Of a DNA stretch of 44,423 nucleotides, positions 1 to 39,924 are shown in pieces. A model generated the notes under the pieces. That model saw only the letters and a list, made by a program, of their open reading frames with translations. It was not told where the DNA came from and ran no database searches. Made by a program: the position numbers and the translations under genes. Numbering within the stretch: the first letter of the stretch is position 1; each line of letters begins with the position of its first letter. Source of the stretch: Natrarchaeobius chitinivorans (GTDB lineage Archaea > Halobacteriota > Halobacteria > Halobacteriales > Natrialbaceae); the NCBI RefSeq assembly GCF_003841505.1, contig NZ_REGA01000048.1, positions 1 through 44,423 on the forward strand, written 5' to 3'.

Positions 1-459
1 ACGGTACCGACACATCTGGAAGAGTTGCGTCAATTCGACGTTGGCCGTCGAGTTGCTTCGGCGATTATCTGCGATGACACCGACTTCATCCAGAATCGGC
101 GCACTCTGGAACGGTGCCGTCCGAAGCAGATGGATGGCTGTCTTCGCGTCCATCGCGGCATGGTTCTCGGCGTCGAACGCTGGATAGTGAGCTTTGGCGA
201 CCGATATTGCCCCGCTCGTTTTCCCGAGTCCGACCCCCGCGTTTCGACCGGTCCAGATGATCCGAATGTCCCGTTCGTTCTGCCATCGGCTCTCGATGAA
301 GTCGTGAATATCGAACGTCGATCGGTACGGCTCGAAGTCCTCGACGGGCAACTCGCGAACCTCGAGCGTGTCTTGTTGCTCGATCGATGGCGAGGACGGT
401 GTTACCGGTCCCTCTTTTGCAGGATCGACTGTCGGATCAAACGTTGAGTCGATGCTCAT
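1..459 (-). CDS. P-loop ATPase, N-terminal part (runs off left edge)
   Basis: Only the first 153 residues lie in the window. The sequence shows a Walker A-like motif (AGVGLGKT, residues 74-81) preceded by a hydrophobic strand (IRIIWTG), and a Walker B-like motif (PILDEV, 121-126) ending in Asp-Glu. The first 45 residues look disordered. The start ATG overlaps the stop of the upstream gene (ATGA, 456-459), so the two are co-translated. P-loop ATPases beside membrane-protein clusters are typical of archaeal viruses with membranes (genome packaging) and of conjugation systems; which role applies here is inference. The C-terminal half is needed to assign a family (packaging, HerA/FtsK, Zot-like or other). 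Confidence 0.8.
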   Translation of the reverse strand, partial: MSIDSTFDPTVDPAKEGPVTPSSPSIEQQDTLEVRELPVEDFEPYRSTFDIHDFIESRWQNERDIRIIWTGRNAGVGLGKTSGAISVAKAHYPAFDAENHAAMDAKTAIHLLRTAPFQSAPILDEVGVIADNRRSNSTANVELTQLFQMCRYR

Positions 460-19875: not shown

Positions 19876-20463
19876 ATGAATCTTCAACAGCACGAGAACC
19901 GAGACGACATGAAGGTCTGGCTCAGCCAGTCCGAGGTCGAGCAGTTACTTGAGGCCGCGGAGAACGCTCAACAGCGGATTGCGTTCGCGCTCGGGGTGCG
20001 CTGCGGGCTCCGATCACACGAAGTCCTCGACGTCGCTCCTGAGGACGTCGTCGATACCGATTCCGGCACGGTACTACGCGTGTGGCACGGGAAAGGCGAC
20101 AAGTTCCGCGAGACGCCCGTCCCGCGCGATCTCGCGACGACAATCCGGACGGTCGACGACGTGCGTCCCGAGTCCTCGAGCACGTCGCTCGTCGAGATCT
20201 CGAGCACGCGCTCGCTTCGGCGGTGGTTGCGATCTACCGCTGACGAGCTGGCCGACGAGACTGAGGATGTTGGCTGGGAGCACCTGGCGTTTCACGATTT
20301 GAGACGAACGTGGGCGACTGCTCTCGCGTCGGCCGACGTCGACCCGTTGCTCGTCTGTGAGTACGGGGGTTGGAACGACCTCGAGACGTTCCTCGACCAC
20401 TATCGCGGCACATTCAGCCCGGAAGCGCGCAAACGGGAGCGGCAGAAAGTCTCCTGGTTGTAA
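19876..20463 (+). CDS. minimal tyrosine integrase, 195 aa
   Basis: The protein is essentially a catalytic domain only. Catalytic residues are visible: R46 (GLRSHE), K76 (GKGDKF), H140 and R143 (HDLRR), W166 in place of the second His (YGGW) and nucleophile Y176 (LDHY). The N-terminal core-binding domain of longer integrases is reduced to about 15 residues. Compact integrases of this kind occur in haloarchaeal proviruses such as SNJ2, but I have not compared sequences. The Orc1/Cdc6-like gene follows within 53 bp, suggesting one integrative, self-replicating unit. Confidence 0.85.
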   Translation: MNLQQHENRDDMKVWLSQSEVEQLLEAAENAQQRIAFALGVRCGLRSHEVLDVAPEDVVDTDSGTVLRVWHGKGDKFRETPVPRDLATTIRTVDDVRPESSSTSLVEISSTRSLRRWLRSTADELADETEDVGWEHLAFHDLRRTWATALASADVDPLLVCEYGGWNDLETFLDHYRGTFSPEARKRERQKVSWL

Positions 20464-20515: not shown

Positions 20516-21523
20516 GTGATAGACAACGCTCGAGCGCTCGAGACAACTCATGTTCCGCAGGACCTCGAGCATCGCGAGGGACAGATTGACCAACTCGTTA
20601 CTGACTTGAGCCCGATCGCTCACGGTCTATCCGGCGAACACACCATGATTTTCGGGCCGAGTGGAACTGGGAAGACGACGCTGGCAAAGTTCGTCGTCCG
20701 GAAGCTACAAGAAGAAGCCTTCGGCGTCAGGCGAGCGTACCATAATTGTATGTCTGGTTCGGCAGAAACAGCGGTTTTGCACGGACTGGTTGATGATTCT
20801 GGACTTGGGAGGCATCTTCCACAGGAAGGTGTCGCTGCAAATCGATACATCGAATGCCTGCGCGAGTCAGACGACCACATTGTTGCGGTCGTCGACGAGG
20901 TCGACGTGATCGACGACGAAACGACTCTGATTGGTCTCTCGGATCTGCCGAACGTCACGCTCATTCTGATTACGATCAACGAAAACGACTTTTTCAGCGA
21001 TCCACGGTTCGATGGTCGCGTCAGGTCGCGGTTTAACCACTGCGAGAAGGTTTGTCTCCACAAATACGAGCAGAACGAACTCGAAGACATCCTTTGGGCG
21101 CGGATCGAAGCGGGACTCAAGCCTGGCGTGATCGACAGTTACGTCGTCGAATATATCGCGAATATGGCTGCAGGCGATGCTCGAGAGGGGATTATACTGC
21201 TTCGACGTGCAACGATGCGAGCGATCGATGCCGATCGAACAGAGATCACGGTTGCCGACGTCGACGCGGTCGAAACCAGCGCAAGAGAGGAGAAACGTCA
21301 GGTCCACGTCGATTCGTTAGGAACACACAAGCGAACCCTGTACGATATTATCGAACGATCTGGAACGATCTCTTCGGCCGAATTGAAGGAAACATACAAA
21401 CAACGAGTCTCCAGCCCAAAATCGCGGAGTACCCGGAACCGATACCTCGATGCACTCGAGAATAAATACGGACTGATTACGTCGACTGGAGTCACGAAGG
21501 GGACTGTTTATCAGTCGACGTGA
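20516..21523 (+). CDS. Orc1/Cdc6-like AAA+ ATPase
   Basis: A 335-residue AAA+ protein with Walker A (GPSGTGKT, 47-54), Walker B (VAVVDEVD, with D127/E128), sensor 1 (LITINEN, 151-157) and sensor 2 region (AAGDAREGI). The last 75 residues form a winged helix (from THKRTLYDII). This is the architecture of archaeal origin-recognition proteins, which bind origin repeats and load MCM. It is shorter than chromosomal Orc1 (about 400 residues), as is usual on plasmids and proviruses. No classical origin-recognition boxes were seen next to it. Confidence 0.85.
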   Translation: MIDNARALETTHVPQDLEHREGQIDQLVTDLSPIAHGLSGEHTMIFGPSGTGKTTLAKFVVRKLQEEAFGVRRAYHNCMSGSAETAVLHGLVDDSGLGRHLPQEGVAANRYIECLRESDDHIVAVVDEVDVIDDETTLIGLSDLPNVTLILITINENDFFSDPRFDGRVRSRFNHCEKVCLHKYEQNELEDILWARIEAGLKPGVIDSYVVEYIANMAAGDAREGIILLRRATMRAIDADRTEITVADVDAVETSAREEKRQVHVDSLGTHKRTLYDIIERSGTISSAELKETYKQRVSSPKSRSTRNRYLDALENKYGLITSTGVTKGTVYQST

Positions 21524-27670: not shown

Positions 27671-27983
27671 CGAGTTCCTCGCACTCGAGGCGCAACGAGA
27701 AGCCCTCGAGCGACAGACCGAGGCACTCGAGGCGATCGCGACGGAGATGCGCTATCAGAACGCCGTCCTCGTCGAGATGGTTTCGTGTCTCGATGACCTG
27801 TCCGCTCGAGTCGACGAGAATCACTTTCCGGAGACCGAGCCAGTCGATCGGTCCGGGCCGGCACTTCAGACTTGGATCCAGGATCGGTTGTACGAGCGCG
27901 ACCAGCTCGAAGGCGACCAGCCGTCGTTTCGGTGGGGCCAGCCGGAGAACTGGCAGGATGCAAATCAGCGGGGTGAACGATGA
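27663..27983 (+). CDS. coiled-coil protein, 106 aa
   Basis: Residues 5-55 form a strong heptad coiled coil (ALEAQREALERQTEALEAIA), and the C-terminal half is polar with Trp residues (LQTWIQDRLYE, SFRWGQPENW). It overlaps the J-domain gene by 8 nt and the integrase gene by 4 nt. It may oligomerise with one of these neighbours; otherwise unrecognised. Confidence 0.65.
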   Translation: MSDEFLALEAQREALERQTEALEAIATEMRYQNAVLVEMVSCLDDLSARVDENHFPETEPVDRSGPALQTWIQDRLYERDQLEGDQPSFRWGQPENWQDANQRGER

Positions 27984-28990
27984 GCGAGGACCTCGAGCCG
28001 CTCTCGCCCGCCGAAGCGGTGAACCTCTATTTGAACCACCGTGAGCCGGAACTCTCCGAGAAAAGCATTCAAAACCAGCGATACCGACTGAACTCCTTCA
28101 TCGACTGGTGTCAGGAAACAGGATTCGAGAACATGAACGACCTCTCAGGTCGCGATCTCCATCGGTTCCGATCTTGGCGACAGAAAGAGGACGTCGCGAC
28201 GATCACTCTCCGGTCGCAACTCGCGACACTGCGCGTGTTCCTCGAGTTCTGCGCGAACATCGACGCTGTCGAACCAGGATTGCGTGAGCGCGTTCTGCTC
28301 CCGGAGGTCGATTCGGTCGACGAATCGCGCGACATTAAACTCGAGGAGGACCACGCGAACAGGCTTCTCGATTACCTCGAGAAGTTCGATTACGCCTCAC
28401 GAGACCACGTTATCGTCGCGATCCTCTGGCATACGGGGATTCGGTTAGGATCGCTTCGCGCGTTCGATCTGAACGATTTCGATCCAGACGACCAGTGTCT
28501 CGAGCTTCGGCACCGGCCGGAAACCGGGACACGTCTGAAAAACGGCTCGAAGGCAAAGCGGGCGATCGCCGTCGGCGAAACGTACTGCCGAACGATTCAG
28601 GACTACATCGACACCCACCGCGACTCGGTGACCGACGATTACGGCCGCCACCCACTGATCACCAGTACTCACGGCCGTCTCTCGAGTGGGGCGATTCGCG
28701 CCACCGTCTACAAGGTGACGCGCCCGTGTTTGCACGACCCCTGTCCGCACAATCGCGACCCGACGACGTGCGAGTATATGGATTATCAGAGCGCGAGTGG
28801 TTGCCCCAGCTCTCGATCACCACACGGGATTCGCCGCGGATCCATTACGAACCATCTCCGCGACGGGACGCCAGAGGAGATTGTCGGTGATCGCATGAAC
28901 GTCTCGAGCGACGTCCTCGAACAGCACTACGATCGGCGCACTGAACGCGAGAAAATGGAGCTTCGACGCCAGTTCATCAAAGAATCATGA
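27980..28990 (+). CDS. tyrosine integrase/recombinase with cysteine cluster (336 aa)
   Basis: An N-terminal SAM-like core-binding domain (about 10-105) precedes a catalytic domain with R155 (TGIRLGSLR), a Lys-rich beta turn (186-194), H282 and R285 (HGIRRGS) and nucleophile Y317 (EQHYDRR). Between them an insertion (250-275) carries C250, C255, C264 and C275, a likely zinc site also seen in other haloarchaeal integrase-like proteins. It lies mid-operon, coupled on both sides, rather than beside an attachment site. It could therefore act as a resolvase or inversion enzyme as well as an integrase. Confidence 0.85.
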   Translation: MSEDLEPLSPAEAVNLYLNHREPELSEKSIQNQRYRLNSFIDWCQETGFENMNDLSGRDLHRFRSWRQKEDVATITLRSQLATLRVFLEFCANIDAVEPGLRERVLLPEVDSVDESRDIKLEEDHANRLLDYLEKFDYASRDHVIVAILWHTGIRLGSLRAFDLNDFDPDDQCLELRHRPETGTRLKNGSKAKRAIAVGETYCRTIQDYIDTHRDSVTDDYGRHPLITSTHGRLSSGAIRATVYKVTRPCLHDPCPHNRDPTTCEYMDYQSASGCPSSRSPHGIRRGSITNHLRDGTPEEIVGDRMNVSSDVLEQHYDRRTEREKMELRRQFIKES

Positions 28991-31640: not shown

Positions 31641-31771
31641 TGAGCGCCGATTTCGTCCGCGCGAGTCGCCTCTACGACGTCGGGAGTCGGACGGCACTCG
31701 TTCATCCAGCCGCACAGGCCAACGACTCAGACGTTCGACGCGCTCTCGAGGACCATGAGTCGCGAGCCTGA
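31640..31771 (+). CDS. small hypothetical protein, 43 aa
   Basis: ATG overlaps the DUF488-like stop (TGATG). The product (SADFVRASRLYDVGSR, ALVHPAAQAND, ALEDHESRA) is probably a short alpha/beta peptide. It overlaps the following large gene by 17 nt, so translation is likely coupled. Supported mainly by start/stop architecture and codon style. Confidence 0.45.
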   Translation: MSADFVRASRLYDVGSRTALVHPAAQANDSDVRRALEDHESRA

Positions 31772-33755
31772 CTCTGACGAACTCGAGGAGGCAACCGACA
31801 ACGCGTTCGACCTCCTCGAGTCTGCGCGGCCTGTCACGAACAGTGACGATGAAATCGAGAGTTTGGTCGAGCAGGAGATCCCGACCGCTGGTGGCGACGA
31901 CGTCACGCTCGAGTTCGACGAAGACAGCGATGTCGGCGATCCCGAACCTCGAGCAGCGTGTCGGTTCTGCCAGGAAGAGTTCCACACGGTCACGGCAGAG
32001 CGGTCGCACCACTCCGAAGATCGGTGTGATCAGGAGTCGCCGGTGTTCCGGCCGGACGGACGGCCGCTGATCGATCCCCAGTTGCACAAGTTCGGCGGGC
32101 ACTTCCTGTTTGTGCCCGGACTCGGCGATCTCCGTGGGTCACAGGACGGGATGGCTCCGTACTTCGGGATCGTCTCGCAGTTCGATCGCTGTCTGCAAGA
32201 GGACGGCGAGGACTACGTCGGATCGTTCGAGAGTGCTGGCGACTCCTGGGTTCTCAACCACGACGAAGACAAGGTCAAGTATTGGCAGGGGCAGATCGAG
32301 ACGCGTCCAGGCGACGTTGGCGATGCGTACTACGAGTATCAGATCGGCGTCGTCGCTGAGGATGCGGTCGGTCGGAAACGGATTAATTTCCAGTTCAGAC
32401 CGTCGCTGCCGGAAGCAACGAACGCTGAGACTGGTGAGCGAATCCAGTCGATGCCGGCTGATCTTCCCGAGGGCATTCGTGTCCAGGTCGAGAGTGCGAA
32501 CGTCGAGCCCGAGGAGATGTTCGGGGTGTTACGGGATTTGATGAGAGAGATCGACGTCGATCCGGCGTACTTCGACGTCGAGAATCTCCACGAGCATTCG
32601 AGAGTGACCGGGCTCGAGCTATACGTACGCGCCGTCCGCGAGATCGTCGAGAAGCAGGTCGTCGAAACCGGTGCCTTGTTCGATCGACTGGCTCAGTTCT
32701 CGAGCGTTCGGCGAGGCCGCGGCGAATACGTGTGGGACAACGAGGAGATCATCGGCCACCGTCACGCCGTCGCGATGAACGAGACGTCACTCGGGAAACT
32801 CTATCGGCAGGGCGAGCACGAGGTCGGCAAACTGCTGAAGAGCTATCTGATGAAGAATCCCGAGAAGCAGGGCGGTCCGACCGCTGAACCGAAGATCGAA
32901 GTTCAGTGGAACAAGGAGTACAGCGACTATCTCGGCGGCAACGCCGTTCCATGGATCGATCCGGACGGCTACGATTTCGAGGATCTTCGTGATGAACTTG
33001 ACGAACACCTGATGTTCGCGCTGAACGCGGCCGAACTACCGCTTCGGGCCGATCCGACGGTGTACGTCGCCGACGAGTACTGGGATGTCGAAGAGTCCGA
33101 GCGTGACGTGGCGGTCCACTCAGATCCGACCGAGGAACTGAAAGAAGCGGAGGAAGATCTCACTCGAGCCCAGCTCGCTCGCGAGGACTTGACGCCGACC
33201 GACCGCGCCGTGATCAAGGCGCTGGCCGACGGCGGTCAACAGCACTACGAGCAAATCGTCGAGAAGACTGATACCTCGAGCAGTTCGGTGTACCGCTCGA
33301 TCGATAAGTTCGGAACGCTCGTCGAGAAGGTGGGTCGCGGGACGTACGATCTGGCCGACGACGTCGTCCGCGAGAAGATCGAGGACGTGTTCCATGCGCT
33401 CGAAGACGTTACCGAGTGGGTCGAGCGCGGGATCGAGGCGGTCGTCGAGGGGAGTGGCGAGATCGCCGACGACTCGGCACTCGCGAAGTGGGCACGACGG
33501 CACGGTGCGATCCTCGATGGCCACCACGACAATCTCGAGGTCGAGCTGACCGGCAGCTTCGCCTCGAAGTACGAAATCCGGAAGTTGCTTCGGTTCGGTC
33601 TCCAGGCCGCCCAGGAGACCGGTGCGAAGACTCGAGCACGGTTCGTTGACGGTTCGTTCACGTTCCGGTTGAACGGAGAGCGACGTCCTCACCAGGAGCC
33701 GTTCCATCACGTCGGCGATCGCCTGTTCTGTCTCGGCGCTCGCACTGAGCGATAA
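31755..33755 (+). CDS. large zinc-finger/winged-helix protein, 666 aa (DUF7845-like)
   Basis: An acidic leader (1-65) precedes a C2H2-like finger (CRFCQEEFHTVTAERSHH, then C). The central domain (about 95-460) includes GHFLFVPGLGDLRGS, APYFGIVSQFDR and WNKEYSDYLGG and resembles haloarchaeal DUF7845 proteins. Around 475-570 is a winged helix (LTPTDRAVIKALAD, TDTSSSSVYRSIDKFGTLVEKV) and then helices and a final beta region. It is the last and largest gene of the operon. In haloarchaeal plasmids and proviruses such proteins occupy the place of a replication or packaging factor, but no enzymatic motif is visible. Function unknown. Confidence 0.7.
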   Translation: MSREPDSDELEEATDNAFDLLESARPVTNSDDEIESLVEQEIPTAGGDDVTLEFDEDSDVGDPEPRAACRFCQEEFHTVTAERSHHSEDRCDQESPVFRPDGRPLIDPQLHKFGGHFLFVPGLGDLRGSQDGMAPYFGIVSQFDRCLQEDGEDYVGSFESAGDSWVLNHDEDKVKYWQGQIETRPGDVGDAYYEYQIGVVAEDAVGRKRINFQFRPSLPEATNAETGERIQSMPADLPEGIRVQVESANVEPEEMFGVLRDLMREIDVDPAYFDVENLHEHSRVTGLELYVRAVREIVEKQVVETGALFDRLAQFSSVRRGRGEYVWDNEEIIGHRHAVAMNETSLGKLYRQGEHEVGKLLKSYLMKNPEKQGGPTAEPKIEVQWNKEYSDYLGGNAVPWIDPDGYDFEDLRDELDEHLMFALNAAELPLRADPTVYVADEYWDVEESERDVAVHSDPTEELKEAEEDLTRAQLAREDLTPTDRAVIKALADGGQQHYEQIVEKTDTSSSSVYRSIDKFGTLVEKVGRGTYDLADDVVREKIEDVFHALEDVTEWVERGIEAVVEGSGEIADDSALAKWARRHGAILDGHHDNLEVELTGSFASKYEIRKLLRFGLQAAQETGAKTRARFVDGSFTFRLNGERRPHQEPFHHVGDRLFCLGARTER

Positions 33756-34208
33756 CCGAGTAGTTACATCTTTTTCGACCGACTTTATTTCTGCAAGTTT
33801 ACTTTCTCCATATCTGGCCTACACAAGTCAGCTTGAATTATTCTGCCGAAAGGGGGAAGAGTGTCGCACTCGACCCATATCACAAAAGTATCACTTCCCG
33901 GCGTTTGGGCAACACCCCTTAGGGCGTGTGCCTAAGGGCACAACCTCAAAAAAACCACTGCGGCTGGTCAGTCGGCTGTTTCAGTTGATCCACACGAAAC
34001 GTACCCCCTGTCCGAAGGACAGCACGGAACAATTTCGTCGTACCGCTTCTCTGTCCCCAAGGGGCCAGCGCAAAAAATTACAGAGCCCCCGCCCCACCTC
34101 CGTACGAAAATCTCCAGTTGAAGCACATGAAACGGGGGTTATACCAGATACATCGGGTTATCCTTTCTAGGGGAAGGTTCAAATAGATCCCATATAATAG
34201 ATGGACCA
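33756..34208. other. non-coding region rich in inverted repeats
   Basis: About 450 bp between the GC-rich operon and an AT-rich gene pair. It contains an 8-bp perfect inverted repeat with 7-base loop (CCCTTAGG at 33916-33923, CCTAAGGG at 33931-33938), CTGTCC/GGACAG at 34008-34022 and the palindrome CCCCAAGGGG at 34055-34064. An open frame at 33928-34170 lacks haloarchaeal composition and is not called. The region could hold a terminator, an origin or a module junction. Confidence 0.45.
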
Positions 34209-35231
34209 ATGTCAGTTGATAAGGACAAGATTAGAAATATCTTGGAAAGTGATTCTATCAAGGCTTCTCACCTGAAAGACTTGGTCGATGAAAGGGGGTT
34301 GGATGTCGAACCACGAACAATCGATAATATGATTACAGCCCTTCTTTCAGAAAAATGGACTACTGACGAGTTTGATGAATTGAAGAAGAAGCTCGTTATG
34401 ATTCAGAAAGAATCATCTCCACATGGATATTATGTCGGAACAATTGAGGATTTGCCGGATGCCACTCCACAGAAAGATCACGAAGAACTCCAAGAGGCTC
34501 TCCGTATCAATGAGGCCAGTTTTGATGGAGACGACTTAGTTGACTCGGGTTTCAAGGTGAATAAATCACTTCCTGATCTGGTCACTGGTATCTATTGGAC
34601 CCAGACCACTACCTATGAATCGGACCCATTCGATAACTTAAGGACAAGGACTAAATTATATGATTTCGGGTTCGAATTCCACCTTGATGAGGGTATCGTG
34701 CATATAATTGGAGATAATTTTGGGAAATTAGGGGAGGTGATGTCGGCCCTTGAAGAAGTTGGTGTCGATATCGAAGGAGTAGGCCATGACGGCGTTCATC
34801 CAGACGATGCTCAAACATATGTGAAAGGCTTTATAAACGACCTGTCTGATGGATTGCAAGACAAGCGTGCTCAACAAAGCCTTACGAACTTCGGTTCAGG
34901 AAGCCACAATCCCCTAATAAGCGTCCATACGGTGCATATCCGTCTATCAGGAGGAGCCCTTCAAAAAGCCGATCTCGAAGGGAACCAAGATATCTTCGAT
35001 AATGATACTGTGGAGGATCTAACAGAAAACAAGAACGGAAAAATTGCGCAAATGAAGGGCGATCTAACCTACAAAGACACGAGCTTTGGATTTAATATCG
35101 GATACAATGAAAGACTTGGCAGAATCAGAATTAAAAAGAAAACAGGGAAAGATGGCGACGTAGATATTGTAGAAGAGGCTTTTGAATTTGTATACTCATA
35201 TTATATAGAATACTATATTGAGAAGCCATAA
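34209..35231 (+). CDS. AT-rich island gene 1, hypothetical (340 aa)
   Basis: Not recognised. Residues 1-55 resemble a winged helix or helical bundle (KIRNILESDSIKASHLKDLV). The central region has strands and helices (FGFEFHLDEGIVHIIGD, GEVMSALEEVGVDIEGVGHD) suggestive of a ferredoxin-like unit. The C-terminus is beta-rich and ends in a Tyr-rich segment (VYSYYIEYYIEKP). No membrane segment is present. GC content and codon use are clearly lower than in flanking genes, indicating separate acquisition. It is coupled to the following membrane protein (TAATG), so the two probably act together. Confidence 0.7.
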   Translation: MSVDKDKIRNILESDSIKASHLKDLVDERGLDVEPRTIDNMITALLSEKWTTDEFDELKKKLVMIQKESSPHGYYVGTIEDLPDATPQKDHEELQEALRINEASFDGDDLVDSGFKVNKSLPDLVTGIYWTQTTTYESDPFDNLRTRTKLYDFGFEFHLDEGIVHIIGDNFGKLGEVMSALEEVGVDIEGVGHDGVHPDDAQTYVKGFINDLSDGLQDKRAQQSLTNFGSGSHNPLISVHTVHIRLSGGALQKADLEGNQDIFDNDTVEDLTENKNGKIAQMKGDLTYKDTSFGFNIGYNERLGRIRIKKKTGKDGDVDIVEEAFEFVYSYYIEYYIEKP

Positions 35232-35980
35232 TGGGGAGACAATTCCAATTTGAGGTTCAATATACCCTCTCACTCATTGTCGGTGTGTTAGGTTTGATCG
35301 GAACAGAGGCCCTTAGCGGCTATATCCGCTTGGAAGTAGGATTAGGGTTCCTAATTATGGGTGGATTCCATTTAATATTGCTATCTATAGTATATAGCTT
35401 TGAAAAGACTGTATCGATACCAATACCGTTAGTTGAGCGGATAGAGGGAGCTAGCGTATGGACATTACGATTAGCAACACTGTTCTTCGTATATTTGCTA
35501 TTCCATGGCCTGAGTAGGAGTCTCTTACCCACTGCAGTCTCTGAAACAAACCGAGGTCTTATTGTGTTTGGGTTACCACTTCTACCTGTTGTGATCATCG
35601 TGATGGCATACATCCTCAGCATCTTACCTTTCAAGAGGTTCTCTGATGATGTCTCCATCACGATTGTCCCGGATGGTCTCACGATCTTTGAGAACTATGA
35701 GGATGGAAGGCCGGGACATATTGAAGTAGTAAATGATGGTGAAAGAACTCACGAGTTTGAGATAGTCATTGACCTTCCAGAGAATGTATACGCCCGTTAC
35801 AAGGGAGAAGAATATGCTGACGAGATTAGAGAGACTCTCTCATTTTCAGGGAAAGGTCTCCAAACTATGGATTTGCAACTTCGTCATGACTCTTCAACAC
35901 AAAAAATGGCACTGACCAAAGTGAATGTTGACTATAAAACGTCTACGAGAGAGATCGAATGGGAAACTCTGTTAGCTTGA
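35231..35980 (+). CDS. AT-rich island gene 2, membrane protein with beta domain (249 aa)
   Basis: Four hydrophobic helices (about 10-28, 33-53, 72-95 and 110-130) are followed by a cytoplasmic or exported beta-rich domain of about 110 residues (VSITIVPDGLTIFENYEDG, then EFEIVIDLPENVYARYKGE) resembling an Ig-like or CARDB-like sandwich. The start overlaps the upstream stop by one base. A soluble protein plus a four-helix membrane protein in a foreign-composition island is a layout seen in many defence systems, but no known family is recognised. Confidence 0.7.
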   Translation: MGRQFQFEVQYTLSLIVGVLGLIGTEALSGYIRLEVGLGFLIMGGFHLILLSIVYSFEKTVSIPIPLVERIEGASVWTLRLATLFFVYLLFHGLSRSLLPTAVSETNRGLIVFGLPLLPVVIIVMAYILSILPFKRFSDDVSITIVPDGLTIFENYEDGRPGHIEVVNDGERTHEFEIVIDLPENVYARYKGEEYADEIRETLSFSGKGLQTMDLQLRHDSSTQKMALTKVNVDYKTSTREIEWETLLA

Positions 35981-36311
35981 TTTGAATTCCACTATTAATT
36001 TTCCTTCCCCCAGGGATTGTACGTCGACAGAATCGGTTTCGCGAATATGCACACGAGAATCGAGATACCGTGTGTATATCTCGAGTTGCTCATTCGATTG
36101 TCTCACTATTCGTCTGTGACTGACCAACAGTTTCGGACCGATTGAGTCCGCTATGGGGTGTTCAGTGAGTCGAAAAAACTAGGATATCGGGGTCGTGTGT
36201 ACGAATATGTGGATCCGAACCGTCAACACTGACTGAAACCGGCCCGATTTATTGAGTGAATATGGCCGACACAGGTGACCAGGAGCCTACTCTCACAAAC
36301 TGACCCAGTTA
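35981..36311. other. non-coding region with an 8-bp inverted repeat
   Basis: A 330-bp gap between the AT-rich pair and a leftward gene. TCGAGATA (36060-36067) and TATCTCGA (36077-36084) form a perfect inverted repeat with a 9-base loop, possibly an operator or terminator. No convincing gene was found on either strand. Confidence 0.4.
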
Positions 36312-36656
36312 TCAGTCTACGCGGAAGGCTGGGTGGATCCACTCGAGGTAGGGCCGGTGGTGTCGAATCCACTGGTCGAGGTCACGGCCTTTCCAGACGG
36401 TACCGACGCACGGGAGATGACCGTCAATCCCGATCTCGTGGATGCGTAGAACATCGCTCTCGTCTTGTCCACCCTCTTCGTACAAGAAGACTTCACGGCC
36501 CCGACGTCGAAAGCCAACCACGTACGAGCCGACGCTGTGCTTTCGCGTGAGTCTTTGTGCGAGTCGGTCCGGATCTCCAGCCCTATCGACCTTCTTGAGG
36601 TACTCTTGGAGTTCGACCTGGAGCGATTCAAGTTCGCTCGTCATTGCGTATGCCAT
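36312..36656 (-). CDS. hypothetical protein, 114 aa
   Basis: Starts at ATG 36656 (MAYAMTSELES), about 25 nt downstream of a TATA-like CTATTTATC on the minus strand, so leaderless. An N-terminal helix (LESLQVELQEYLKKVDRAG) precedes a beta-rich domain (VGSYVVGFRRRGREVFLYEEGG, HEIGIDGHLPCVGTVW) ending in Trp/His-rich residues. A second in-frame ATG lies at 36644. Not recognised; probably a small soluble regulator or ligand-binding protein. Confidence 0.65.
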   Translation of the reverse strand: MAYAMTSELESLQVELQEYLKKVDRAGDPDRLAQRLTRKHSVGSYVVGFRRRGREVFLYEEGGQDESDVLRIHEIGIDGHLPCVGTVWKGRDLDQWIRHHRPYLEWIHPAFRVD

Positions 36657-36842
36657 ATAGACGCCCACGGAGTTGCGATAAATAGTCTCGAGGGACCGGT
36701 TTCCGTTTCCAAAAGTTTCCGATAACCCTCGCGTCCACCGTATCCGGACGAAAGTCGTTGGGCGATCAATTCCTCTGGACAGCATACCGGCGTATGTGTG
36801 ATAGAAACGTTTAACCCAGTTAATTTGACACCCGGTGGGTGA

Positions 36843-37871
36843 ATGAACCGACCCGAGGCCGGATCCCAGTTCGTTGCTCAGGTCGCGGTGATGTCGATCC
36901 TTGCAGTCGCGACAATCGTCATCATTACACTGCTCATCGGCGCTCCAGGAGCTTCGGTCGAAGGGTTTGAACCAGATGCAAGCGGTACAACACTCGAGAC
37001 CGACGTGGACGAGGTCACGATCGTCGACTCAACGGGGACGGCGATCGAAATGGGTCCGTCACACTCACGCGTCGCGACGGACCTATCCGACGGTGAATCA
37101 GGCGAAGCAGCGTTGTCGACATGGGTGCAACTCGATAGTGAGGCTGCACTCTGGCGGGACTACTACGTCGCCCAGTATGGCGATGCCCAGCTCGTCCTGC
37201 TTCTCATTGACGGTGAATGGACGGGGATTCATACGGATCAGCAGTCGGCTATCGTTTCCACCGACGTAACCAACCACGATACACTTCGGCAGGTTGGCCT
37301 CGAGCACGACTCTGAAGAGTTGCGGTTGTACGTTGACGGTGAATTAGTCGATTCGGAACCGTTGACCGATGGAGACACCGATATCCCAGCAACCGACTCA
37401 TTCTTTGGAACGGTCGAAGAGGTCCGAACGTTCGACAGTACGCTGGAGGCAGACGACTGGCACACGCTGCACGACGATCCAGTCGCACCGGTCGAACCAG
37501 GTTCAGAAACTGCTCGGCTCATGTTCGACGAGTCTGGCGGTGATGAAACGTACGTCGTCTACCACGGCGAGTGGACCGAACTCGAAGGAAACATCGAGTG
37601 GACAGACGGGCTCGAGGGAACGACCCTTTCCGAGGGTGACGATTACGAGATCGACGCACCCGACAACACCATTCAGCCAACGCAAGAAGGAGAATTAGCA
37701 GAGCTACCCCGGGCGTACATCTACACGTCGGATTCCAACCAGTTCATCGCAGCCGATACACTCTCGCGAGTGTTTTCCATCCTTCTGGTTTCACTCGTGG
37801 TGCTGGTCGTAGTTGCAGTGATCACCATGCTTCCTACCTTGTCGGGCGGATCGCGGTCTCGAGGACGATGA
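36843..37871 (+). CDS. membrane-anchored LamG-like surface protein (342 aa)
   Basis: A hydrophobic segment at about 12-35 could be a signal anchor or pilin-like N-terminus. Residues 45-220 form a concanavalin/LamG-like sandwich (ALSTWVQLDSEA, LRQVGLEHDSEELRLYVDG, EEVRTFDSTL). A second beta region follows, and a C-terminal helix (about 308-332) with a basic tail (GGSRSRGR) anchors it. It should be displayed outside the cell or particle. ATGA overlap couples it to a Tat-type partner. Carbohydrate or glycoprotein binding is the usual LamG role; the ligand is unknown. Confidence 0.7.
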   Translation: MNRPEAGSQFVAQVAVMSILAVATIVIITLLIGAPGASVEGFEPDASGTTLETDVDEVTIVDSTGTAIEMGPSHSRVATDLSDGESGEAALSTWVQLDSEAALWRDYYVAQYGDAQLVLLLIDGEWTGIHTDQQSAIVSTDVTNHDTLRQVGLEHDSEELRLYVDGELVDSEPLTDGDTDIPATDSFFGTVEEVRTFDSTLEADDWHTLHDDPVAPVEPGSETARLMFDESGGDETYVVYHGEWTELEGNIEWTDGLEGTTLSEGDDYEIDAPDNTIQPTQEGELAELPRAYIYTSDSNQFIAADTLSRVFSILLVSLVVLVVVAVITMLPTLSGGSRSRGR

Positions 37872-38941
37872 CAGATCAAACCATGACGAACGACACAATG
37901 CAGACCAGTGAAACGACGAACCTCTCACGACGAGCAGTCTTGGCGATAACCGGGTCCCTGGGGGTTGCTACTGCAACCCAGACAGTCAGTGGCGATGTCT
38001 CAGTAGGATCTTCCAGTGGCACACAAGAGGCAACGCCGATCCGAAACTGGCAAGTCGGGCACGAAGACAACGTGCCGGACGATTCGCAGGGGGTTGAGGG
38101 TGATATGTTCTTCACGACCAACGCCGCCCCGGACTACTGGCATGATGGATCCGAGTGGGTTTCGGTCCCCGGAAACGGTGACGGCAGTTGGTCACTGACT
38201 GCCGATGGCGCTCTCGAGCCGACTGACGGCCAGCCAGTCACTGTCGAAAAGGCATACACGGAAACTGTTCCTGACGAAGCGTCGGCGATCCCGAACCGAA
38301 ATTGGGTCGATAGGCAAATAGCCAGCACTCCCGACGTGATCGATGGCTTCGAGAGTGGAACTGTTGCGGAATACGACGGTGATCTCGGCTCGTTCGACGT
38401 CAACAGCGATGACCCTGTTTCGGGAGGGCACTTCAGCCTCAAACTCTTGCCAGACGCTGATGTGGCCGATAGAATCGTCTCGACCACCGGGTTGAACGCG
38501 TATCCGCCGCGTGGGAGTACCATTCTGGCAGACGTCGAAATGGTGAACGTTGATCAAAACGTTCGGCCTGGATTGATTTTCGGCGCAGAAGGGCTCGAGA
38601 ATCACTATACGGCGAGGTACCAGGGGCAAGCCAGTGAAATCCAGATCGGCATCCGTGAAGGCGGGACCTGGGACGTTCTCGATTCGGCATCTATCGATCT
38701 CTCTTCTGGCCGTCACACGTGGCGAGTTGACTTCGACGATCCAACGATCCGATTCGAACTCAGAAACCTCGTCGGCGACGTCGAAGGGATCGTCGAGGTC
38801 GATGACGAGACGTTCGAGGGCCACGGTGTTGGGTACTACATCGGTTCCTCGATATCGTATACAAACGCGGTTTTCCACCGCATCCGACGCCTCTCACAGA
38901 AGTTAGATACGGACTATGACGGTGGCGGAGGAGCCAGATAG
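37868..38941 (+). CDS. Tat-exported LamG-like protein (357 aa)
   Basis: The N-terminus has NLSRRAVLAITGSLG, a twin-arginine export signal followed by a short hydrophobic stretch. Residues 60-130 contain a fibre-like module (GDMFFTTNAAPDYWHDGSEW). The second half is a concanavalin/LamG-like sandwich (GGHFSLKLLP, NHYTARYQGQASEIQIGI, RHTWRVDFDD). The WHDGSEW-type module resembles phage tail-fibre segments. It lies between an anchored LamG-like protein and a carboxypeptidase; all three probably act at the cell surface or on a virion. Confidence 0.7.
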   Translation: MTDQTMTNDTMQTSETTNLSRRAVLAITGSLGVATATQTVSGDVSVGSSSGTQEATPIRNWQVGHEDNVPDDSQGVEGDMFFTTNAAPDYWHDGSEWVSVPGNGDGSWSLTADGALEPTDGQPVTVEKAYTETVPDEASAIPNRNWVDRQIASTPDVIDGFESGTVAEYDGDLGSFDVNSDDPVSGGHFSLKLLPDADVADRIVSTTGLNAYPPRGSTILADVEMVNVDQNVRPGLIFGAEGLENHYTARYQGQASEIQIGIREGGTWDVLDSASIDLSSGRHTWRVDFDDPTIRFELRNLVGDVEGIVEVDDETFEGHGVGYYIGSSISYTNAVFHRIRRLSQKLDTDYDGGGGAR

Positions 38942-38943
38942 CG

Positions 38944-39924
38944 ATGAGTGACGAGCATATTGCAGTAGAGTTAGCGGATCCGTGGTGGGGTCCAAACGGC
39001 TACTGGAACTTTCGACTGAACGGCGTCAAGGACAAGCAAATCTCGTTTCACATCCGAAATATCGAAGAGTCACACCAGGACTTGGATTACCGGCCTGCGA
39101 TAACGGCAGATCCGATGACTGACGAATGGGATCGAGTAGACGAATGGGTTGAGGATGGCTGGACCCACTCGTTCGATATCGACACGGCCTATATTGGATT
39201 CGTCCCGTATCCCTACCGCAAAACAGTTGACTTCGTTTCCGAGGTCTCCGACAGCGAGTTCGTCGAGACTGCGGTCATCGGCCAGAGCGTCCAGGGCCGT
39301 GATATGCATTGTATCCGCATTGGGGATCCTACCGAGAACGGCGAGATGCTCGATATCGTACTCACTACGCGGCTACATCCGGGGGAGACGCTCTCGAGCT
39401 ATCAAATCGAAGGGGCGGTGAACTATATCCTCGATACGTTCAGAGAGAGTGGGTTCGATCGAGCTTACCGCTTTCACATCTATCCGAACGGGAACCCTGA
39501 CGGCATGGTCAACGGATGGCAGCGTCACAACGTCAACGGCGTCAATCTCAACCGACAGTGGGACAAAACAGATCCATCCGTCGAGGTCGAAAACATCCAA
39601 CATGACCTCGAATCACACGTCGACAACTATCATTGGGGAATCGACTGGCATACGCAACCGGCGGACTATCCCACTGTATTCTACGATGCTACCGAGCATT
39701 CTGACGATGAAATCGATACCATCGAGGAAATCGAACGTGCGATAGAAGGCACGTCCGGGTTGAATAGCGTTGACGGTGCAGGACGGGCTCGAGGCTACTT
39801 TACCGATGAATTCGGTGGTCCAGGGATCACCATCGAGACGAAAGATTATCACCCGTACGATGCGGCTACGCTCCGATCCGAGGGGCGTCAAGTAATTCAG
39901 GCGATCACGGATACGGCAGCGTAA
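38944..39924 (+). CDS. M14-family zinc carboxypeptidase (326 aa)
   Basis: The M14 catalytic set is complete: H145 and E148 (RLHPGETLSS), R204 (NLNRQW), H236 (IDWHTQ) and E298 (TIETKD). A beta-rich N-terminal domain (about 1-95, YWNFRLNGVKDKQISFHI) resembles that of cytosolic carboxypeptidase-like members. M14 enzymes remove C-terminal residues or modify peptides. No signal peptide is visible, unlike its exported operon partners, so it may act inside the cell or use another route. It starts 2 nt after the preceding stop. Substrate unknown. Confidence 0.82.
   Translation: MSDEHIAVELADPWWGPNGYWNFRLNGVKDKQISFHIRNIEESHQDLDYRPAITADPMTDEWDRVDEWVEDGWTHSFDIDTAYIGFVPYPYRKTVDFVSEVSDSEFVETAVIGQSVQGRDMHCIRIGDPTENGEMLDIVLTTRLHPGETLSSYQIEGAVNYILDTFRESGFDRAYRFHIYPNGNPDGMVNGWQRHNVNGVNLNRQWDKTDPSVEVENIQHDLESHVDNYHWGIDWHTQPADYPTVFYDATEHSDDEIDTIEEIERAIEGTSGLNSVDGAGRARGYFTDEFGGPGITIETKDYHPYDAATLRSEGRQVIQAITDTAA

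Follow-up and report, generated by a model that had tools for sequence, protein, structure and literature searches.

We propose that two overlapping genes, A and B, in a 44,423-nucleotide stretch of Natrarchaeobius chitinivorans DNA (the window) encode a two-component module for virus exclusion, carried by haloarchaeal mobile elements and acting in the manner of lambda RexA/RexB, a reading to which we give a probability of roughly 55%. The proposal is based on four features: an RdgC-type soluble protein, a four-helix membrane protein, carriage by temperate viruses and neighbouring repressor-type genes. The predicted proteins, a swappable slot for defence genes and relatives inside archaeal proviruses together suggest that A and B probably block rival viruses.

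The two ORFs form the AT-rich island described in the original prediction, with a GC content of 42.0% in the A/B cassette versus 56.8% across the remaining window (Table 1). They are also coupled, as had been claimed, by a TAATG junction in which the TAA stop of A and the ATG start of B share one base. The host genome (4.57 Mb in 48 contigs) carries a single copy of A. Orthologues in Halopiger goleimassiliensis are 93% (A) and 91% (B) identical at the protein level; the DNA of this species is 84% identical to the window over a block barely exceeding both genes and differs throughout outside it. Counting codon changes against the nearest relative, we obtained dN/dS values of 0.037 (A) and 0.084 (B). 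Because the orthologues retain this protein identity at 84% DNA identity with low dN/dS, A and B are not chance coding; both are intact genes under purifying selection, which favours the Rex-like reading. The expectation that neither protein has a recognised family held up: searches of Pfam even at E<=1 gave no meaningful match for A or B (a match of B to ABC2 at E 1 is meaningless), neither matched a PADLOC model at E<=0.01, and 18 rows of the A family matched nothing in PADLOC-DB at E<=10. One PHROG of unknown function weakly matches residues 251-311 of A (E 1e-4).

Table 1. Coordinates of the genes, conserved segments and protein regions discussed in the text; nucleotide positions refer to the window unless a locus is named.
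Feature	Location	Strand	Description
Gene A	34209..35231	+	ORF, 340 aa, predicted soluble
Gene B	35231..35980	+	ORF, 249 aa, predicted membrane protein
Left conserved slot segment	34052..34139	+	Order and orientation kept with right segment in many relatives
Right conserved slot segment	36003..36222	+	Reaches first codons of lost DUF7692 gene
DUF7845 / PHROG 3288 "transcriptional regulator" gene	31755..33755	+	Pfam E 4e-89; PHROG E 3e-72
Tyrosine integrase	27980..28990	+	Pfam; tblastn
Tyrosine integrase	19876..20463	+	Pfam; tblastn
Transposase	22722		Upstream of A/B
Protein A, N-terminus	residues 1-69		Helical; likeness to SAP judged by eye alone
Protein A, first half	residues 70-224		First half of RdgC-type fold (model)
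Protein A, second half	residues 237-340		Second half of RdgC-type fold (model)
Protein B, membrane part	residues 1-140		Four membrane helices (model)
Protein B, helices	residues 2-24, 34-60, 66-98, 105-140		Model and hydropathy
Protein B, C-terminal domain	residues 141-249		Ig-like beta-sandwich (model, Ig-like structure matches)
Gene C	L055 8992-9744		
Gene C	L059 10055-10834		
Gene C	L039 3257-3934		
Gene C	L053 6194-6940		
Gene C	L056 6329-7063		
Gene C	L057 8884-9579		

An AlphaFold model of A from an 18-row alignment (mean pLDDT 87.3, pTM 0.80) agrees with the earlier description of A as a soluble multidomain protein. RdgC is a toroidal, recombination-associated DNA-binding protein of E. 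coli, and when the model was compared with the PDB using Foldseek, three RdgC chains alone reached E<=0.001, the best with E 2.5e-6, a probability of 1.00 and a TM of about 0.4. VIA-align likewise placed RdgC first, with Z scores of 10.6 (rmsd 5.4, 227 residues aligned) and 9.7, followed by kinetochore CENP-L and others at 7.6 and below, and among viral structure models phage RdgC-type proteins top the matches of A. In the model, residues 70-340 share the RdgC-type overall fold. Since A has no sequence signal to RdgC (no match to PF04381, while E. coli RdgC scores E 6e-126, and an hhalign probability of 0.3), the assignment is one of fold only. The generic sensor role first suggested for A is accordingly less likely than that of a DNA-binding protein with an RdgC/RexA-like fold. 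In three genomes (G315, G156 and G456) A takes the form of two consecutive ORFs, and all three are split at one and the same linker, where confidence in the A model is lowest (residues 228-232). Given this shared breakpoint, A looks as if two cooperating halves had been fused.

The model of B (pLDDT 81.4, pTM 0.54) is less certain in its overall arrangement; it reproduces the four-helix membrane protein with a beta domain that had been described, and hydropathy supports the helices. Charged residues suggest that the Ig-like domain probably faces the cytoplasm.

We looked for relatives in genomes of the host's family, order and class and in viral contigs; the pair turned up again in other haloarchaea, in two forms. 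Type 1, in which B follows A in the same direction, occurs in the window and in genomes G011, G087, G315, G156, G453 and G459, with B cut off by the contig end in G156. In type 2 a homologue of A, A', adjoins a membrane or an Ig-domain protein, B', usually divergently and often with a third gene, C; it was found in G034, G063 (two), G089 (two), G024, G093, G006 and G456, and as two A'/B' pairs on the IMG/VR contig L039. No B' was identified at the type 2 locus L054, and at three others (L053, L056, L057) a short Ig-domain ORF was all that was seen. Within the window's family, 3 of 125 genomes carry type 1 and 6 carry type 2. A and B stay linked at every type 1 locus that no contig end interrupts, and at type 2 loci A' almost always has an Ig-domain gene or a membrane gene beside it, a recurrence that also argues for the Rex-like reading. 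Comparison with hhalign shows A and A' to be homologous (probability 98%, E 1.7e-13, 267 columns); the similarity of B to B' is weak (probability 13), with at most the Ig-like part in common. Gene C, of about 225-250 aa with a GYV/IEVY-P motif, accompanies most type 2 pairs; by eye we suspected it to be a relative of A, and the comparison of the two detected no kinship.

In all 17 cassettes measured, GC content is 0.38-0.47 with host flanks at 0.52-0.66, and this constancy of AT-richness across hosts is consistent with the Rex-like reading. Searches of plasmids with A and B (tblastn), and of viral contigs with A alone or with alignments of type 1 A or B, gave no match. N-terminal matches that fell within TadA/VirB11-like ORFs (G329, G282) were set aside as chance (E about 0.008).

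Two overlapping genes in a mobile location, one of them for a membrane protein, could also be a toxin-antitoxin or addiction pair in which B damages the membrane and A neutralises B. We consider this quite improbable: A is large, is modelled as folded and shows the same degree of conservation as B, the model of B includes a folded beta domain, and type 2 loci have divergent genes plus the further gene C.

Tyrosine integrases usually accompany the relatives, which are found in pleolipovirus-like and SNJ1-like proviruses and on an IMG/VR contig with two pairs. In G453 the pair adjoins a replication gene that is related to those of pleolipoviruses and 55% identical to its counterpart in Halorubrum virus Humcor2; other genes of virus families, paired winged-helix regulators and a TIR-type protein are also present. 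In G459 it adjoins SNJ1-like genes, including a capsid protein (32% to SNJ1) and a packaging-type ATPase, and on L039 an integrase sits between the two A'/B' pairs. Tyrosine integrases akin to the two in the window are found at eight loci (L017, L030, L031, L039, L053, L054, L056, L057) and integrases of other types at L032, L008/L009 and L059; the association of integrases with the pair is a descriptive one. At L030, a TIR/nucleoside-deoxyribosyltransferase-like gene (1933-2658; PADLOC TIR effector E 3e-10) lies directly 5′ of the pair within a pleolipovirus-like element.

That pleolipovirus-like, SNJ1-like and other viral elements carry the pair, near integrases and winged-helix regulators, speaks for the Rex-like reading. 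Many pairs adjoin such regulators as well as integrases, which would also suit a self-serving role in which A adjusts how its own provirus or plasmid replicates or switches to lysogeny, B only anchors A, and effects on other viruses are incidental; lambda RexA, too, shifts the lysogeny switch (PMC11077077). We regard this role as unlikely, as the pair turns up in elements unrelated to one another and within a slot otherwise filled by restriction systems, and the G011 pair persists under selection apart from any recognisable provirus. The Rex-like reading also draws on the methyltransferase, helicase or TIR genes that adjoin other A loci. Among the neighbours are a type II methyltransferase and a GajB-like helicase in G156, a helicase and an exonuclease in G315, and a DrmD-like SNF2 protein in G089. 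Against it stands one copy, in Halopiger goleimassiliensis, among ordinary chromosomal housekeeping genes. Consistent placement in metabolic or transport operons had been named as the pattern that would speak against defence; the homologues instead lie in proviruses, beside integrases and restriction-modification or helicase genes, and in the restriction-carrying slot.

This slot was revealed by a DNA search using window positions 33000-38000. The cassette exceeds the two genes (34209-35980), with conserved ends at 34052 and 36222. In most relatives read, a DUF7845 gene lies upstream of the slot and a DUF7692 gene downstream; the window retains the former, and its DUF7692 gene is broken after the first codons. 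The slot is nearly empty in G030 (344 bp in all) and in other relatives holds cargo unrelated to A/B of up to 4.9 kb. Among it are a restriction-modification enzyme of type IIG (Eco57I-type) and an Mrr-type nuclease that has membrane helices; a DNA methyltransferase is found together with a GHKL ATPase, which PADLOC relates to type II restriction enzymes; several other genes are unknown. Most of this other cargo is AT-rich as well. We had read the paired ends as those of a transposon, but both neighbouring genes proved conserved once the flanks were read, so that an integration or recombination hotspot fits better. The slot looks like a hotspot for antiviral cargo with A-B as one occupant, and the restriction systems that it holds in other genomes favour the Rex-like reading.

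The slot, present in relatives at L086-L101, is common in haloarchaea and contains restriction systems and many unknown AT-rich genes. At L088 (2199-3884, minus strand) it holds a pair encoding a soluble (294 aa) and a membrane (267 aa) protein with no PADLOC match and no detectable kinship to A. The host genome has two further copies of the left segment, one with a small ORF of about 170 aa as cargo (G000:C2, L084 4597-6134) and one with a membrane protein (G000:C11, L085 4313-4400). Its occupants make up a ready catalogue of other putative antiviral genes.

The window's own copy of A/B lies inside a mosaic mobile region. The original prediction had set the pair between mobile modules, and we do find two integrases, a transposase and the virus-type DUF7845 gene, all of them upstream. 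The DUF7845 gene product shares 20-25% identity with proteins of pleomorphic haloviruses, SNJ2 and LSV-48N. The integrase nearer to the cassette is related to those beside the A/B loci L017, L030, L031, L054, L056 and L057, and the farther one is 84% identical to the L039 integrase. A Cdc6/Orc-type AAA gene (20516-21523) adjoins an integrase, which suggests an integrated replicon upstream of the cassette. Downstream, a three-gene run (36843-39924) encodes a membrane protein of laminin-G lectin type, a protein that looks secreted and an M14 zinc carboxypeptidase.

For a Rex-like module we infer the following course. A would dimerise through its RdgC-type fold and clasp double-stranded DNA without sequence specificity, while B, anchored in the cytoplasmic membrane by its four helices, would hold A via the Ig-like domain. 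Close to the membrane, A may engage the DNA of an infecting rival virus or its replication-recombination intermediates; the complex of A and B would then stop the infection, most likely through a Rex-like disturbance of the membrane by B; it is less likely that it merely holds viral DNA at the membrane, as in Kiwa. The candidate defence or competition role put forward originally survives every test made, and setting and predicted fold both argue for such an activity.

We suggest more tentatively that A/B represents an archaeal virus-exclusion family that shares no sequence kinship with described systems and consists of a DNA clasp of RdgC fold tethered to the membrane (A) and its four-helix Ig-domain partner (B), present in two forms, in several kinds of haloarchaeal provirus and in the DUF7845-DUF7692 slot. 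If true, the Rex-type strategy is also present in archaeal viruses, possibly of independent origin, and exclusion by an RdgC-fold DNA binder with a membrane partner operates in archaea, in elements related to membrane-enveloped viruses. So far such exclusion has been described for lambda and a handful of actinophages, and it is still poorly understood. Since the haloarchaea Haloferax and Haloarcula have laboratory genetics, how Rex-like systems sense and stop infection would then be testable in a second domain of life.

Several known systems invite comparison. Among them, RdgC resembles residues 70-340 of A in overall fold, as modelled, but A differs from it in sequence and in having a membrane partner gene; to our knowledge RdgC has no such partner. 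P2 phages and P4 satellites have antiviral hotspots with fixed flanks and exchangeable antiviral cargo (PMC9122126). The haloarchaeal slot shares both properties and differs in its DUF7845-DUF7692 flanks and in its cargo.

Kiwa combines a membrane protein with the DNA-binding KwaB, which blocks replication (PMC12904381). A and B could work in this manner, with B as a membrane sensor and A as a DNA-binding effector that coats injected viral DNA, blocking replication and late transcription without membrane damage. The two-part layout is the same, with a soluble partner (predicted to bind DNA in the case of A) of about 320-340 aa, and 11 of 125 genomes from the same archaeal family carry true Kiwa loci, some of them adjoining an integrase closely related to that of L039 (L069 119-3046 in G041, 92% identical; L060 5-2037 and G060, 93% for the fragment in G060). 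However, A has no match to PF16162 and an hhalign probability of 0.1-0.2 against eight haloarchaeal KwaB proteins, B reaches a probability of 2.7 against four KwaA-like partners, and these partners lack its Ig-like domain. RdgC, not KwaB, leads the structural matches of A, and KwaB chains, which the PDB holds, are absent among those listed. On profile comparison we reject membership of Kiwa, and a Kiwa-like mode of action, the leading rival mechanism, is unlikely, if slightly less so than the self-serving role.

The layout of the pair has a close known analogue in lambda RexA/RexB, which refines the sensor-plus-membrane-effector arrangement suggested originally. RexA binds DNA and is dimeric, and its crystal structure showed an unexpected likeness to RdgC; RexB has four predicted transmembrane helices and interacts with RexA, and the two exclude T4rII (PMC11077077). 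Rex-like proteins of actinophages bind DNA, and as pairs they exclude other phages (PMC11077077); phages Sbash, CarolAnn and Toast carry such Rex-like pairs. No sequence test relates A/B to this system or to Kiwa, and we therefore file the pair under neither: A gave no match to the RexA profile PF15969 at E<=10 (lambda RexA, E 1e-97; hhalign probability 0.1), nor B to the RexB profile PF15968 (lambda RexB, E 8.5e-92; hhalign probability 3.5). The RexA structure 8twq, although present in the PDB, is also absent among the structure matches listed for A, which counts against the Rex-like reading. A further differs in its additional helical N-terminus and B in an Ig-like domain that RexB lacks, and the carriers are archaeal, with type 2 loci divergent and joined by a third gene. 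The likeness lies in a soluble protein with a modelled RdgC-type fold, a four-helix membrane protein encoded next door (model and hydropathy), and carriage by temperate viruses near repressor-type genes, here in pleolipovirus-like, SNJ1-like and IMG/VR elements. A/B and RexAB are perhaps unrelated by descent, and A/B is most likely a sequence-unrelated variant of the Rex-type kind.
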